Source of the DNA: Bacteroides zhangwenhongii
Lineage (GTDB): Bacteria > Bacteroidota > Bacteroidia > Bacteroidales > Bacteroidaceae
NCBI RefSeq assembly: GCF_009193325.2
Contig: NZ_CP059856.1
Coordinates: 5,084,001 to 5,148,000, forward strand
Direction of reading: 5' to 3'
DNA: 64,000 nucleotides
Under the pieces are notes generated by a model that saw nothing but the letters and a program-made list of their open reading frames with translations, did no database searches and had not been told where the DNA came from. The translations under genes and the position numbers were made by a program. How positions within the stretch are numbered: the stretch's first letter is position 1; every line of letters starts with the position of its first letter. This document shows positions 7,347-60,732 of the stretch, in pieces.

Positions 7347-8647
7347 ATTCGGGTGATTCTGGCTCCGATGGCGTTCAGACGCCCTTCGATGTTCTGATAA
7401 CCACGGTCTATCTGTTCGATGTTACTAATGGTACTAGTTCCTTCGGCGCTCATGGCGGCAATCAGCAGGGCGATACCGGCACGTATGTCCGGTGAAGTCA
7501 GGCGGGCGCCGCGCAGCTTGAAGCCGTGATTGTGGCCGATGACTACGGCACGGTGAGGGTCGCAGAGAATAATCTGAGCTCCCATATCAATCAGCTTGTC
7601 TACGAAGAACAGGCGGCTTTCAAACATTTTCTGATGAATCAGCACGCTGCCTTTGGCTTGTGTCGCCACAACGAGCATGACACTCAGCAAGTCCGGAGTG
7701 AGTCCCGGCCAGGTGGCGTCGGCTATCGTCATGATGGAGCCGTCGATAAAAGATTCTATCTCGTATGTTTCCTGTGCGGGAACGTAAATATCATCGCCTC
7801 TCTGTTCGAGCTTGATGCCCAAGCGGCGAAAGCTCTCGGGGATGATTCCCAGATTCTCGTAAGAAACATTCTTAATGGTGATTTCACTTTTCGTCATGGC
7901 TGCCATACCGATAAAGCTGCCGACCTCAATCATATCGGGCAGTACGGTGTGCTGTGTGCCATGCAGTTTGTCCACCCCTTCGATGGTAAGCAGATTGGAC
8001 GCGATACCGCTAATCTTCGCTCCCATCCGGTTGAGCAAGCGGCAAAGCTGCTGAACGTAAGGCTCGCAGGCTGCATTATAAATAGTGGTAGTGCCTTTGG
8101 CAAGCACGGCAGCCATCACGATATTGGCTGTTCCGGTGACGGAAGCCTCGTCCAGCAACATATAATTGCCCCGAAGTTGTTTGGCGGTAATCTCGTAGAT
8201 TCCACGCTCCTCATCGTAGCGGAAGTCTGCCCCTAAATTCTGAATCCCGACAAAGTGGGTATCCAGACGACGGCGACCAATCTTGTCCCCTCCCGGTTTG
8301 GAGATCAGCGCTTTGCCGAAACGGGCAACCATCGGACCTATCAGCATGACAGAACCCCGCAGGCTGGAACATTTCTTCAGGAACTCATCGCTTTCGAGAT
8401 AAGCCAAGTCTACATTTTCGGCCTTAAAGCTATAAGTATCAATGCCTTTCTTTGCAACCGTCACTCCCATCTCACGCAAGAGCTGAATCAAGTTGTTGAC
8501 ATCCAAAATGTCAGGTATATTGTTCACCGTCACTTCCTCTTCAGTCAGCAACGTAGCGCAGATGATCTGCAAAACTTCGTTTTTGGCACCTTGCGGATGA
8601 ATCTCGCCACAGAGCCGGTGTCCTCCTTCGATTACAAATGAAGCCAT
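7343..8647 (-). CDS. murA: UDP-N-acetylglucosamine 1-carboxyvinyltransferase, Asp-type
   Basis: Adds enolpyruvate from PEP to UDP-GlcNAc, the first committed step of peptidoglycan synthesis. The substrate-binding loop reads [16 protein letters not shown] where the common form reads LPGGCTIGARPVDLH. Residue 121 is therefore Asp (codon GAC at 8285-8287) in place of the catalytic Cys115 of E. coli that fosfomycin alkylates. Cys-to-Asp MurA enzymes are known to be active and fosfomycin-resistant in other bacteria. Full length at 434 residues. It overlaps rimM by four bases and lies 23 bases after the DUF4290 gene. Confidence 0.96.
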
Positions 8648-55760: not shown

Positions 55761-56615
55761 TTAGGAAGAAATCCATCGTGCCAACGAACGTTCCGTGACT
55801 TCCCACAGTAGCTCCCTCTGCACGTGATGAACGTATTTATCCGATAATTTTTTCCGACGATTGCTAGCATACAGTTGCCCCGTCACTCCGGCTTCTTTCT
55901 CATCCAACAACAAACCGATAGCGGTGGAAGCCCCTTGTGCGGGCTTGCGAATAAAAGGCCGGAAGAAAATATCCGTCAGCGGGTCAAACCACTTATGCAT
56001 AGTAATAATATTAGTAGAGACAATGCCCGGATCGGCAGCATTGACGGTAATTCCTTTATCACGGAGTAGCTTGGACAGTTCAATGGTAAACAACAATAAA
56101 GCCAGTTTCGTATTGCTGTAAACGGGAATTCTCCAAAATTCTCCGACCTTGCCTCTGTGAAAGAAATCGGGAAGTTCAATACGCCCGATCGCATAAGTGC
56201 AAGACACCATGTTTACAATTCGCGCACCGCGCACCATCGCAGGAATCAGTTTCCGGGTAAGCAGATAAGGTCCTACATAATTCACGCTAACCGTTCGCTC
56301 AAACCCATCTACGGTAATATGAAGTCCCGTTTCCATCGTTCCCGCATTATTCATCAGCAGAGAAACAGGAAGGTTACGTTCTAATATCCGGTCGGCAAAA
56401 GAAGCTACGGATTGCATGGAAGCCAAATCAAGAGCCATAACTTCCAGATTCGGGTTCCCGGTTTCTTCAATCAAACAAGCGCGGACAGTCTCCGCCTTTT
56501 GGGGGTTGTAACAAGCCATTATTACCTGATAACCAGCTTTGGCAACGGCACGTGTGATTTCCGTTCCCATCCCTCCGTCCGCACCGGTAATGATAGCCCA
56601 TTTTATATCATTCAT
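55761..56615 (-). CDS. Short-chain dehydrogenase, candidate 3-beta-hydroxysteroid dehydrogenase
   Basis: SDR-family enzyme of 284 residues. The cofactor loop is TGADGGMG (TGxxxGxG type), then NNAGTM, and the catalytic Tyr-Lys pair is in YSNTK, with the Ser before it in NMVSCTYAI. Sequence after the loop (ACYNPQKAETV, no Asp after strand 2) leaves NADH or NADPH open. It is the last gene of the steroid operon and its ATG overlaps the OYE-type gene by four bases. By context it would reduce 3-oxo-5-alpha-steroids to 3-beta-hydroxy products such as isoallolithocholate. Activity is inferred, not shown. Confidence 0.82.
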   Translation of the reverse strand: MNDIKWAIITGADGGMGTEITRAVAKAGYQVIMACYNPQKAETVRACLIEETGNPNLEVMALDLASMQSVASFADRILERNLPVSLLMNNAGTMETGLHITVDGFERTVSVNYVGPYLLTRKLIPAMVRGARIVNMVSCTYAIGRIELPDFFHRGKVGEFWRIPVYSNTKLALLLFTIELSKLLRDKGITVNAADPGIVSTNIITMHKWFDPLTDIFFRPFIRKPAQGASTAIGLLLDEKEAGVTGQLYASNRRKKLSDKYVHHVQRELLWEVTERSLARWISS

Positions 56616-57835
56616 TTCTTTTCCAATTTTTCAATCTCCTTTTGCAGACAAGGAGGTAACGTTTCTTTTAAATGTTGATGGCAAGCCATTTCTATCGAAT
56701 ACATACGGCCTATGCAGTAATTACTGTGTCCACAGCTGCAACGGGCCTGCTCCTCCTGCTTCATCCGGTTCACAAATCCAGGTTCGTTGAGTAAGGCACG
56801 TCCCATCTGCACAGCTTCAAAGCCCGCATCGAGCACTTCATCTATCTTCTGACGGGCAACGAGTCCGCCAACATAAATCAAGGGAGCTTCCGGAAGAGCT
56901 TCCCGGAACTTTAAGGCGTCTTTCAGGAAATAAGCCTCTTCAAAAGGTACGGACGGAATCATCCATTTTCCGAACATCCGGACGCCGTATTTCAGCCACC
57001 AACAGTCCATGTAGTGCGCCATCGAGCGAATCGGCATCGCTCCCCGCATCACATACATCGGGGCTTTGCTGACAAAGCCTCCACTCAGCACCAGTCCGTG
57101 AGCACCCAGCTCCAGAAGCCGCTTCGCCACCTGAATGGATTCGTCTATTTCCATTCCGCCTTTGAAACCGTCGCGCATATTCATTTTGACAATCACCGCC
57201 ATGTCATTGCCCGCCGCTTTCATCACCTCTTCCATCACCAGATCCATAAAACGCATCCGGTTCTCCAGCGAGCCTCCGAACTCGTCTTTGCGATGGTTGG
57301 TGTAAGGTGAGAGGAATTGGCTGATTAAATAACCGTGTCCGGCATGCACTTCCACCGCATCAAACCCCGCTTCTCGTGCCAAGTTGACAGCGTTTCCGTA
57401 AGCCTGTGCCATTTCCGGAAGTTCTTCCTGTTCCATTCCACGCACAAACGTAGGCGAATAGAGGTTAAAACCAGAAGAAGCGGATATAGGCGTGACACCG
57501 CAAATCTTTTTGTGGGACATATTTCCGCAATGCCCTATCTGGATACCTACCGCAGCACCCTCGTCGTGCACGGCTTTTGTCAATTCATTCAAACGGGAAA
57601 TTATGGACGGACGCATCCATAACTGACGATCGAAAGAGAGCCCGCTTTGCGTCACGGCGGCATAAGCTACGGTCGTCATCCCCACTCCTCCCGCAGCAAC
57701 CGAGCGGTGGTAATCCAATAGCATCTGCGAGGGAGTATTGCCCGGACACATACTTTCAAACGCTGCCGAACGTATCGTCCTGTTCCGCAGCGTCAAAGGG
57801 CCGAAAGTGACCGGAGTGAAAAGTTTAGATTCCAT
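56612..57835 (-). CDS. Old Yellow Enzyme-family flavin oxidoreductase, candidate steroid 5-beta-reductase
   Basis: NADH:flavin-oxidoreductase TIM barrel of 407 residues with FMN-binding features: TPVTFGPLTLRNRTIRSA at the N-terminus, the substrate pair in IQIGHCGNMS, and AGHGYLISQFLSPYTNHRKDEFGGSLENRMRF in the middle. The C-terminus has four cysteines (Cys366, 368, 374, 385) of a modified iron-sulfur pattern. It lacks the extra NADPH domain of full 2,4-dienoyl-CoA reductases. By context it interconverts 5-beta and delta-4 3-oxosteroids or bile acids. It couples by ATGA overlap to the SDR gene and lies 63 bases after the 5-alpha-reductase gene. Confidence 0.82.
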   Translation of the reverse strand: MESKLFTPVTFGPLTLRNRTIRSAAFESMCPGNTPSQMLLDYHRSVAAGGVGMTTVAYAAVTQSGLSFDRQLWMRPSIISRLNELTKAVHDEGAAVGIQIGHCGNMSHKKICGVTPISASSGFNLYSPTFVRGMEQEELPEMAQAYGNAVNLAREAGFDAVEVHAGHGYLISQFLSPYTNHRKDEFGGSLENRMRFMDLVMEEVMKAAGNDMAVIVKMNMRDGFKGGMEIDESIQVAKRLLELGAHGLVLSGGFVSKAPMYVMRGAMPIRSMAHYMDCWWLKYGVRMFGKWMIPSVPFEEAYFLKDALKFREALPEAPLIYVGGLVARQKIDEVLDAGFEAVQMGRALLNEPGFVNRMKQEEQARCSCGHSNYCIGRMYSIEMACHQHLKETLPPCLQKEIEKLEKK

Positions 57836-57898
57836 AGTAGTTTATATTTATTCAAGTCTTAATTCTAGTCTTAATTCAATTCGTGATAAAAAAATCTC

Positions 57899-58660
57899 CT
57901 AGTAGAGAAAAGGAAACACCCGCTTCCGTGTGCCTACCGCGTCGCCGAATTCCTCGCGATAACGTTTCCAAATGGCGTCGGCTCGCGGAACGAGGTTTGC
58001 AATCGTCCACCAAAGGAAAACAAGTCCGGAAAGCGAACAGGTAAGAATTGCCCAGCCTGCCCATTCTACGATTTCACCGAAATAATTGGCGGAAGTCACA
58101 TAGCGGTACATGCCTTTCTGTGGCAGATAATGCCGTGTGTCTCCCGGTTTACGCAAATGGCGGATGATATAATCGGACGACCAGTTCACCAGCATACCCG
58201 TGAAAAACAGCAAAGTACCTATTATAAAGTACGGGGAGGTGAACCAATCGGACTGGTACATCGTTGCGGGGGCAAGGTAGAAAATCCATTCTCCTTGCAT
58301 ATATCCATTCAACAGATTGAAAAGGATTCCCATTGACATGATGGCCAACGGCATTTTACTTTTTCCTTTCAATAACAAAGGGAAAATGAAAGCCCGTTGA
58401 AAATAATGCAGTTGGAAGAATAAAAAGAAGGTCAATATCACCGGCTCAAAGCGGCGTTCCGAATACATCCACATCACGCACATCACGAGGAAGACCGGAG
58501 CTTCCATCAGTATCCAAGCCAGTTTGTTTGAAATAGCCGCTCCCCACGAAGACGTGCGGAAGATTCCGTATCCTGCTTTCACGAAGTAGAGAGCGACAAA
58601 AACAATCAGGGCAATCAAGCTCATTACACCCAAAAACAGATTAAAAGCTGCTAAATTCAT
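57899..58660 (-). CDS. Steroid 5-alpha-reductase homologue (3-oxo-5-alpha-steroid 4-dehydrogenase family)
   Basis: Membrane enzyme of 253 residues, the size of human SRD5A1. It has about seven hydrophobic helices. The C-terminal half carries the family block: LRKPGDTRHYLPQKGMYRYV then NYFGEIVEWAGWA, and ends RKRVFPFLY. SRD5A enzymes share PGxTxxxxPxxGxxxYVTxANYFGE and a terminal PFLF/Y. I start at MNLAAFNLF (58660) instead of the frame start at 58717, giving a signal-like membrane helix at once. First gene of the three-gene minus operon. Predicted to reduce the delta-4 bond to the 5-alpha configuration with NADPH. Confidence 0.9.
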   Translation of the reverse strand: MNLAAFNLFLGVMSLIALIVFVALYFVKAGYGIFRTSSWGAAISNKLAWILMEAPVFLVMCVMWMYSERRFEPVILTFFLFFQLHYFQRAFIFPLLLKGKSKMPLAIMSMGILFNLLNGYMQGEWIFYLAPATMYQSDWFTSPYFIIGTLLFFTGMLVNWSSDYIIRHLRKPGDTRHYLPQKGMYRYVTSANYFGEIVEWAGWAILTCSLSGLVFLWWTIANLVPRADAIWKRYREEFGDAVGTRKRVFPFLY

Positions 58661-58682: not shown

Positions 58683-58690
58683 CAAAAATA
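58683..58690 (-). promoter_or_regulatory. -7 box of the steroid operon
   Basis: TATTTTTG on the minus strand, 22 bases before the start at 58660. No regulator gene adjoins. Confidence 0.65.
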
Positions 58691-58856
58691 GCAAAAATGA
58701 AAATAATAGCCACACAAAATGTCTTTTAAATATTAAACTTACCAAAATAACAACTACACTTTGGATTCAAGAATTTACCATCGAAGGACTCGCGGGCAAC
58801 GATTGCACATAATTCACTGATTTACACCAGTATACAAAGGGCAAGTTATCAAATAG

Positions 58857-58998: not shown

Positions 58999-60732
58999 TT
59001 ATATTTCCTCGCATCTCAGCATCTCCCATCCCCGGAATTGAAGAAGTAAACGATGAAGAGTTGTGCCTTTCGCCAATTGGCGAGCTATTTTATCTTCACT
59101 ATATTGATGCAACTGCCTGCGCCCTTCCTCTGCTTGTGCCGCAAGTTCCGCATCGGTAGCAGTACGTGCCGCGTATTTCAACTCCAGAATATAGCTGTGC
59201 TCTATATCTGGATAACGCTGCTTGTCAGGCAGAAGGAAAAAGTCACAGTAACCATAATTCATCTCCAGCTCAGGCTCTACCAGATAATAGGAAGCGAGTG
59301 CCAGATAGGCCTTGAGGAAACCTTGCAGGTTTCTTTCCCCTTCCATTCCGTCACGTATAGAGGAATTCTCATGATAAGCACCGGCTATGGACTCAAAGAA
59401 CGGTTTCCAATGACCGTCGTAAACCAAATCGTCTATCTGGTCTTTCAAATGAGAAAGATTTAACGGATGAATCTGTTGATAATAATCACGCAGGAAACCG
59501 AAATATTGCTCGCGTACACAATGATTGGGGATGCACATCCGCAGCCGGTCACCACGTGTGCCGCAAATTGTAAGCAATCCGTAATAATAGAGCAGGCTAC
59601 GAAAATTATCAATATCCACTATCCTCTCCGCCGGAAATGAAGTGTGAAGGTTCACCAGAATCTCTCCTTTTGCAGCAATCTCCTCAATCGTGCTCATACG
59701 ACTTCCTTCACGGCTACTGTCATGATCGATACGGGCAAGCATCTTCAGTTTACTGTAATCGGTACGAATATTTTTATCTACCATGTCTTCGGGAGAACGA
59801 TGAAAGTCAATCTGGCTACGCAAATAGTATAACGTCATGTCGCAATTAAAAACTCTATCATCATTCAAGCTCATCCGTGCAAAGCAATAATTATCATACC
59901 ACGGCTTCATCTCCGATATCATCGCTTCCACCTCACCGGTCAACAAACCATTTGATTTATAATAAGTAAACATCTCACGCACTTCCGTTTCACTGAATCC
60001 CATCATTGCATTGAAGCGAGAATCAGTCGATATATTCCAATCTATATTATATCCACTAGACAAGTCGTCCAGTGTGACCGGACTAACTCCCATCAGGAAA
60101 ATGCGGTTGAACATTCCCTTATATTGCTTGAAATATTCCCGATAAAATCCACTGGCGTGTGCCAGACCATGAAACATTTTCTGACCGTGTTCGCTCAATA
60201 TGACATTCGTGAAGTTATCATATTCGTCAATTATCAGATACAAAGGATATCCCTTTTCCTTTGCTTCCAATTCAATATAAGCCAGTTTAGCTTTCGGATT
60301 CTCAATGCTCAATACTCTCGATTCAAAATCATCATTGTAGAATGAGGCATATTGCTGGGCAAACTTATCAATGACCAAACCGCAATACTCATTAAAACTC
60401 GTCATCAACCCGTCGCCTACGCCTGAACAACCGGCTTTGGAAAAATCGAAATAAAGAACCTGAAAACGATTGCGTTCTTCAGTGGGATGCGTGCCAATCC
60501 ATAAATCGCCAAAATACTTGTCAAAGTTGTCCCGCTGCAATATATCGTAATAAGTACGCATCATGCTTAAGAAAAGACTTTTCCCGAATCGTCTCGGACG
60601 AATAAGAAACAAATAATTGGGCATTTGCTCAATCAGCGGCAGATACCTGGTCTTATCTACCAAATAACAATTATCACTTCTCAATTGGTTAAAATCCGAT
60701 ATTCCATAAGGTATTCTTTTCACTTGACTCAT
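58999..60732 (-). CDS. AAA-ATPase-like protein with PD-(D/E)XK nuclease-type domain
   Basis: Protein of 577 residues. N-terminal AAA-ATPase-like domain: it starts with PYGISDFNQLR and YLVDKTRYLPLIE, then a P-loop variant FLIRPRRFGKSLFLSMM (about residues 41-57) and the Walker-B-like LIIDEYDNF. The C-terminal half ends with a PD-(D/E)XK-type core, MNYGYCDFFLLPDKQ...ILELKYA, with the Asp, Glu and Lys present. The family (AAA-ATPase-like plus DUF1703) is large and expanded in Bacteroidetes, without a settled role; defence or mobile-element links have been suggested. Single-gene unit with its own promoter. Confidence 0.85.
   Translation of the reverse strand: MSQVKRIPYGISDFNQLRSDNCYLVDKTRYLPLIEQMPNYLFLIRPRRFGKSLFLSMMRTYYDILQRDNFDKYFGDLWIGTHPTEERNRFQVLYFDFSKAGCSGVGDGLMTSFNEYCGLVIDKFAQQYASFYNDDFESRVLSIENPKAKLAYIELEAKEKGYPLYLIIDEYDNFTNVILSEHGQKMFHGLAHASGFYREYFKQYKGMFNRIFLMGVSPVTLDDLSSGYNIDWNISTDSRFNAMMGFSETEVREMFTYYKSNGLLTGEVEAMISEMKPWYDNYCFARMSLNDDRVFNCDMTLYYLRSQIDFHRSPEDMVDKNIRTDYSKLKMLARIDHDSSREGSRMSTIEEIAAKGEILVNLHTSFPAERIVDIDNFRSLLYYYGLLTICGTRGDRLRMCIPNHCVREQYFGFLRDYYQQIHPLNLSHLKDQIDDLVYDGHWKPFFESIAGAYHENSSIRDGMEGERNLQGFLKAYLALASYYLVEPELEMNYGYCDFFLLPDKQRYPDIEHSYILELKYAARTATDAELAAQAEEGRRQLHQYSEDKIARQLAKGTTLHRLLLQFRGWEMLRCEEI

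Follow-up and report, generated by a model that had tools for sequence, protein, structure and literature searches.

The window analysed here, a 64,000-nucleotide stretch of the Bacteroides zhangwenhongii genome (contig NZ_CP059856.1, positions 5,084,001 to 5,148,000), contains a candidate steroid-modifying operon: three complete open reading frames clustered on the minus strand (58660-55761), whose products are referred to below as 5AR (steroid 5-alpha-reductase), OYE (Old Yellow Enzyme) and SDR (short-chain dehydrogenase). The genes and associated features are:

57899..58660, minus strand: 5AR, predicted steroid 5-alpha-reductase of the SRD5A family, a helical membrane protein of 253 aa
58505-58507, 58502-58504 and 58403-58405, minus strand: M52, E53 and Y86 of 5AR, at the positions of the Gln-Glu-Tyr (QEY) motif
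56612..57835, minus strand: OYE, single-domain Old Yellow Enzyme-type flavin ene-reductase of 407 aa, candidate 5-beta-reductase (5BR) or delta4-dehydrogenase
55761..56615, minus strand: SDR, classical short-chain dehydrogenase of 284 aa, candidate 3-beta-hydroxysteroid dehydrogenase (3-beta-HSDH)
58683..58718, minus strand: candidate Bacteroides-type promoter TTTG-N24-TATTTTTG, an exact match 22 nt from the 5AR start codon

The tight arrangement on which the original prediction was built is confirmed, with a gap of 63 nt between 5AR and OYE and a 4-nt overlap (ATGA) coupling OYE to SDR. The single promoter box that it described corresponds to one match, upstream of 5AR, to TTTG-N24-TATTTTTG, which we take to be the Bacteroides promoter consensus; with six exact matches in the window and 2.49 expected by chance, the box is weak evidence alone. 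The G+C content is 46.6% for 5AR, 51.1% for OYE and 47.0% for SDR, with a window average of 46.9%. The genome of this common human gut bacterium (5.32 Mb, 2 contigs) carries one copy each of 5AR and OYE. Across the cluster, its DNA shares 98.9% identity with that of Bacteroides finegoldii DSM 17565 (locus L002), which places the window in, or close to, that species.

The first gene product matches Pfam PF02544 (Steroid_dh) with 136.9 bits (cut-off 22.6), and its two best matches, by both sequence and fold, are steroid 5-alpha-reductases, namely PbSRD5A (E 1.2e-52) and human SRD5A2 (E 6.9e-39). Its AlphaFold2 model (pLDDT 88.4, built on 36 aligned sequences) has the multi-helix membrane fold of the SRD5A family, with TM-scores of 0.91 to PbSRD5A (7c83) and 0.85-0.87 to human SRD5A2 (7bw1). 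The PGxT...-type block and PFLY end that the original prediction described are present as KPGDT...YRYVTSANYFGEIVEW and a terminal FPFLY. The catalytic Glu-Tyr pair (E57 and Y91 in human SRD5A2) corresponds to E53 and Y86, and both residues, together with R170, E196, N222 and R226, are identical in 152/152 aligned rows; N159 is found in 150, D163 in 151 and N192 in 147 of these. The histidine of TM7 (H230 in PbSRD5A, H231 in the human enzyme) is an isoleucine in the window 5AR and variable across the clade; human SRD5A2 H231A keeps its activity (PMC7815742; this and the other articles are cited here from excerpts). Judged by profile, sequence and model, the first gene is assigned as a steroid 5-alpha-reductase. 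Its predicted activity is the 5-alpha-reduction of a delta4-3-ketosteroid, the activities in the literature being those of relatives.

One catalytic position departs from the characterized enzymes. M52 and E53 align with human Q56 and E57, and Y86 with Y91, with no gap at these residues, and methionine occupies the Gln position in all 82 rows of a first alignment and in 152/152 rows of the larger one. After removal of copies, the latter comprise 141 distinct sequences (50% identity or more to the window 5AR in 106, less in 35), all from Bacteroidota or uncultured relatives except one from Nocardia farcinica. Outside the Bacteroidota, the comparison covers this Nocardia sequence, with Met, and two enzymes from the PDB (human and proteobacterial), both with Gln. 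In human SRD5A2, Q56A/L, E57L and Y91F lose activity, and the Gln is said to hold the Glu in place (PMC7815742). The window 5AR is thus placed in PF02544 by its profile, modelled fold and Glu-Tyr pair, and is by its residues not a QEY-type enzyme. The 5AR of Odoribacter laneus (L033) also carries Met, and since this species is reported to make isoallolithocholic acid (isoalloLCA), the most economical reading is that such MEY enzymes are active rather than dead. A literature search aimed at the motif, with most subscription journals outside its coverage, returned no report of the Met-for-Gln change, which may already be on record. The change would offer a simple test of whether the QEY mechanism is universal and of whether drugs against human 5-alpha-reductases also act on gut bacteria.

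The second gene product matches Oxidored_FMN (190.2 bits). By sequence, the structures closest to it are those of OYEs, 3krz and YqjM (1z41) among them; by fold, its model (pLDDT 88.8) is nearest to a 2-naphthoyl-CoA reductase (22% identity) and again to these OYEs. Its matches comprise OYE- and 2,4-dienoyl-CoA-reductase-type structures. H164, H167 and Y169 are found in 66/66 rows (one of them a copy of the window's own gene), as are C368, C374 and C385, with C366 in 50/66 and a lower model confidence in this region. From these residues an iron-sulphur cluster is possible; the cysteine spacing differs from what we take to be the four-Cys cluster motif of the 2,4-dienoyl-CoA reductase type. The third gene product is an adh_short protein (110.7 bits) with Asn112-Ser138-Tyr166-Lys170 conserved in 62/62 rows. 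The Pfam scores of the three proteins rule out chance matches to their families. The assignments of OYE as a 5BR and of SDR as a 3-beta-HSDH are candidate roles that follow from synteny, not from sequence.

Gene order around 5AR was compared in the best 80 of 244 relatives, allowing OYE up to 2.5 kb downstream, with distance and identity thresholds of our own setting. OYE lies close downstream of 5AR in 64 of the 74 loci with enough flank, and the order is kept across genera. The arrangement of the window, 5AR-OYE-SDR, recurs in 43/80 loci; in another 16, among them loci of O. laneus, other Odoribacter, Butyricimonas and Alistipes, a spacer of about one gene, itself a further SDR in 14/16, separates OYE from SDR. 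Five loci have 5AR-OYE only and six are cut by contig ends. In a tree of 82 SDR rows (midpoint-rooted, with some long branches and bootstrap not settled), the window SDR falls among the second SDRs of the Odoribacter, Butyricimonas and Alistipes clusters; of the two O. laneus SDRs it joins the second and is separated from the first, with 100/100 support. The first SDRs form a separate group, which includes the SDR adjoining OYE in a Parabacteroides distasonis record, in a stretch without 5AR. In that record (L083, NZ_OY725754.1, 7126-9140), OYE and this different SDR are adjoined by genes for an RND efflux pump and a TetR regulator. Spacing varies as well: 5AR and OYE are ~1.4 kb apart in B. 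bouchesdurhonensis (L011, 8760-10170) and ~0.1 kb apart in B. faecalis and B. faecichinchillae, the extra length possibly being an insertion. In L012 (B. reticulotermitis), L024, L025 and L048, SDR follows 5AR with no OYE between, and a 5-beta-reductase would then not be encoded by the cluster.

The two reductases also keep company at the level of whole genomes. Among 295 Bacteroidales genomes (5AR searched at E 1e-10, OYE at E 1e-60), 64 have 5AR and 53 OYE; 47 have both, 17 only 5AR and six only OYE, an odds ratio of 104 (p 2e-33, uncorrected for relatedness). Where the 5AR is close to that of the window (at least 51% identity), 34/35 genomes have OYE; it shares contig and strand with 5AR in 30 of them and lies within 504 nt in 29. 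A 5AR of less than 50% identity occurs in 31 genomes, two of them with a close 5AR as well; OYE is present in 14 of the 31, never adjacent to the distant 5AR and ~9 kb away in three. A phylum-wide search of 395 genomes with PF02544 gave matches in 70, only eight above 120 bits; the remainder were weak and mostly partial and were excluded from the 5AR count.

Three further ideas about the distribution of the cluster were rejected. A second 5AR cluster (L074, 62% identity; NZ_GG688318.1, 77178-93948), filed under B. finegoldii DSM 17565, might have been a paralog; when 7.5 kb of it was searched against the window's genome, nothing matched above 70%, and the window cluster is 98.9% identical between both genomes. 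This 5AR-OYE-SDR scaffold is probably contamination of the DSM 17565 draft. Carriage on mobile elements was raised by hits labelled as plasmids in Phocaeicola massiliensis and P. distasonis. Both are typed as non-mobilizable and bear the same strain label (TSDC17.2-1.1); the P. distasonis record is annotated with housekeeping genes, among them pth and ribosomal L25, and that of P. massiliensis bears just one annotated feature. The two records are probably chromosome contigs under a wrong name. Finally, loss of OYE in bile-free habitats was considered post hoc: OYE is present in 1/4 rumen or termite loci (L012, L064, L077 and L081, with L076 left out as cut) and 64/71 others (p 0.0066), a difference confounded with family, and cecal Paludibacteraceae loci (L038, L039) also lack OYE; we therefore do not rely on it. 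The termite origin within this set is presumed.

Many distant 5ARs appear to have a different partner. Among 33 such loci (L155-L187), 29 of them with a called 5AR frame, 16 have an extended SDR belonging to a single family, and in all 14 of these with a called 5AR (14/29 called 5ARs) it lies directly upstream on the same strand. Three representatives match PF01073 (3Beta_HSD) with 63.6-87 bits (cut-off 22) and Epimerase more strongly, with 106-119 bits. These matches suggest that the distant pair may carry out 3-beta-hydroxysteroid oxidation/isomerisation and 5-alpha-reduction on sterols. In L181, an MMPL protein with a match to a sterol-sensing domain is encoded ~4 kb from the distant 5AR on the other strand. 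The gut set, with OYE and a classical SDR, could be the later arrangement, although the order of events is a guess. Tentatively, the Bacteroidota 5ARs might be a distinct MEY class, with an altered proton relay, action on 3-oxo-delta4 bile acids with charged side chains and its own sensitivity to finasteride and dutasteride, and the operon might have arisen by swapping an ancestral 3Beta_HSD-like partner for OYE and a classical SDR.

Clusters of this composition are on record. PMC10382948, drawing on Sato et al., describes strains of P. merdae, O. laneus and B. dorei that turn 3-oxo-delta4-lithocholic acid (3-oxo-delta4-LCA) into isoalloLCA. It also states that P. merdae forms no alloLCA derivatives once its 5AR is disrupted, and that the cluster around the 5AR gene includes a predicted 3-beta-HSDH and an NADH:flavin oxidoreductase, the latter a hypothesised 5-beta-reductase. 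PMC12697870 likewise cites a Bacteroidetes 5AR/5BR/3-beta-HSDH cluster for the conversion of 3-oxoLCA to isoalloLCA, and PMC10672800 gives the same order of steps; the excerpts of the first two agree with the statement in the original prediction that such a cluster had been reported. That the window holds one is in turn supported by the gene set of O. laneus (L033; 69% identity for 5AR, 72% for OYE and 43% for the second SDR), by the SRD5A matches and by the conserved order. The operon is therefore another example of an already reported cluster type, an assignment that is well supported and not new.

We consider it very probable that the three genes form an operon for remodelling the A/B rings of steroids, of the 5AR/5BR/3-beta-HSDH kind reported in Bacteroidota. 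The analysis shows the families and catalytic residues of the products, the predicted fold, the layout of the operon and the co-occurrence and conserved order of its genes. We infer the substrate in B. finegoldii, the direction of the OYE reaction and the 3-beta stereochemistry of SDR as follows. Acting on a 5-beta 3-oxo steroid, for example 3-oxo-lithocholate, OYE would remove hydrogen (or restore it) and so yield a delta4-3-one. The membrane-bound 5AR would use NADPH to reduce the C4-C5 double bond of this product from the alpha face. E53 and Y86 would polarise the C3 carbonyl while hydride is delivered to C5, making the A/B junction flat (trans), and SDR would reduce the 3-ketone to the 3-beta-alcohol, the isoallo product. 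According to PMC10382948, isoalloLCA inhibits Gram-positive pathogens such as C. difficile, and PMC12697870 reports that it promotes regulatory T cells; with this operon, B. finegoldii and its relatives join the candidate producers.

Several observations weigh against this assignment. M52 stands where human SRD5A2 needs an essential Gln. OYE scores 171.2 bits against the BaiCD equivalog model (NCBIfam NF041087), far below the cut-off of 825. PMC12238238, in the part consulted, tells OYE clades apart by a residue pair (Asn and Ser in steroid-hormone enzymes, Tyr or Ser and Glu in bile-acid enzymes), and the window OYE, with G168/Q173 at the positions matched via the conserved Tyr, has neither. 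Among the 74 uncut loci, four lack OYE (5AR-SDR) and six lack both OYE and SDR. Of the three same-genus genomes sampled (the window's own, G230 and G238), the window's alone has 5AR; the operon is not universal within the genus. Twenty other Bacteroidota strains gave 3-oxo-alloLCA (PMC10382948), so SDR may not be a 3-beta-HSDH in every species. The likeness to the P. merdae cluster, finally, is to its published description rather than to its characterized sequences. Those same OYE-less loci, the OYE paired with another SDR and no adjoining 5AR in the P. distasonis record, and the failure of the sequence test to back a BaiCD function would also fit a scheme in which 5AR and SDR are the steroid pair and OYE is a general ene-reductase with no part in 5-beta ring flipping. 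Given how tightly OYE co-occurs with and adjoins 5AR, and that its active-site residues are invariant across 66 rows, this is unlikely.

The choice of substrate is less one-sided. It is quite possible, if not what we expect, that the same enzymes act mainly on host or dietary delta4-3-ketosteroids (testosterone, progesterone, corticoids, sterol ketones), with bile acids as a side activity; the original prediction also allowed for a steroid hormone or sterol. PbSRD5A acts on progesterone (PMC7815742). In women, the blood DHT/T ratio is associated with microbial 5-alpha-reductase genes, for which PMC12589954 names O. splanchnicus, B. uniformis and P. distasonis as possible origins. Bacteroidales metagenome-assembled genomes with rumen titles (yak, water buffalo), from upstream of bile entry, encode 5ARs (L064, L076, L077, L081), and many distant 5ARs adjoin the 3Beta_HSD-like gene. 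In the articles excerpted, however, it is bile acids that the window-type set with its OYE is reported to act on, and 5-beta bile acids, unlike hormones that are already delta4, require an OYE that makes this bond. A non-steroid role for the PF02544 protein, as an enzyme like isoprenylcysteine methyltransferase (ICMT) or enoyl-CoA reductase, is highly improbable. The matches that would favour it are weak: E 1.5e-5 to TECR, an overlap of 26.3 bits with DUF1295 and, as the next fold match of the model, ICMT (E 0.018, TM 0.35). The matches to steroid 5-alpha-reductases are far stronger, in sequence as well as in fold, and the Glu-Tyr and NADPH residues are conserved; the best matches are SRD5As, not the methyltransferases or fatty-acid enzymes that the original prediction had named as the outcome that would speak against it.

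The upstream neighbour of 5AR encodes an AAA-ATPase-like/PDDEXK_9 protein (58999-60732), which gave no match when checked for a defence role with PADLOC. Beyond it lies what is presumably a citrate synthase-like gene, and downstream of the operon, on the opposite strand, one that we take to be phosphofructokinase-like. The segment 59004-60824, with the AAA-ATPase-like/PDDEXK_9 gene, is absent from B. finegoldii DSM 17565, where the flanks meet at 7658/7652 of locus L002; these ~1.8 kb are strain-specific and begin ~0.3 kb upstream of the 5AR start.

Compared with known systems, the window 5AR is like the SRD5A family (PbSRD5A, PDB 7c83; human SRD5A2, PDB 7bw1) in fold, Glu-Tyr pair and NADPH residues, and differs from both enzymes in having Met for the Gln of QEY and Ile for the TM7 His. 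BaiP and BaiJ of the Firmicutes are likewise bile acid 5-alpha-reductases; PMC9645264, as excerpted, gives 60.5 kDa for the recombinant protein and contrasts them with the membrane-associated enzymes of the Bacteroidetes. With BaiCD, the clostridial delta4-3-ketosteroid 5-beta-reductase, the window OYE has in common the OYE barrel and the proposed chemistry at the C4-C5 double bond, but it is a single-domain protein of 407 aa, whereas the BaiCD model spans 642 positions. The closest counterpart is the Bacteroidota isoalloLCA cluster of P. merdae, O. laneus and B. dorei, which has the same three kinds of enzyme as the window operon. In O. laneus, OYE directly follows 5AR, as in the window; clusters of the O. 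laneus type mostly have an extra SDR between OYE and the common SDR, whereas the window has one SDR only.

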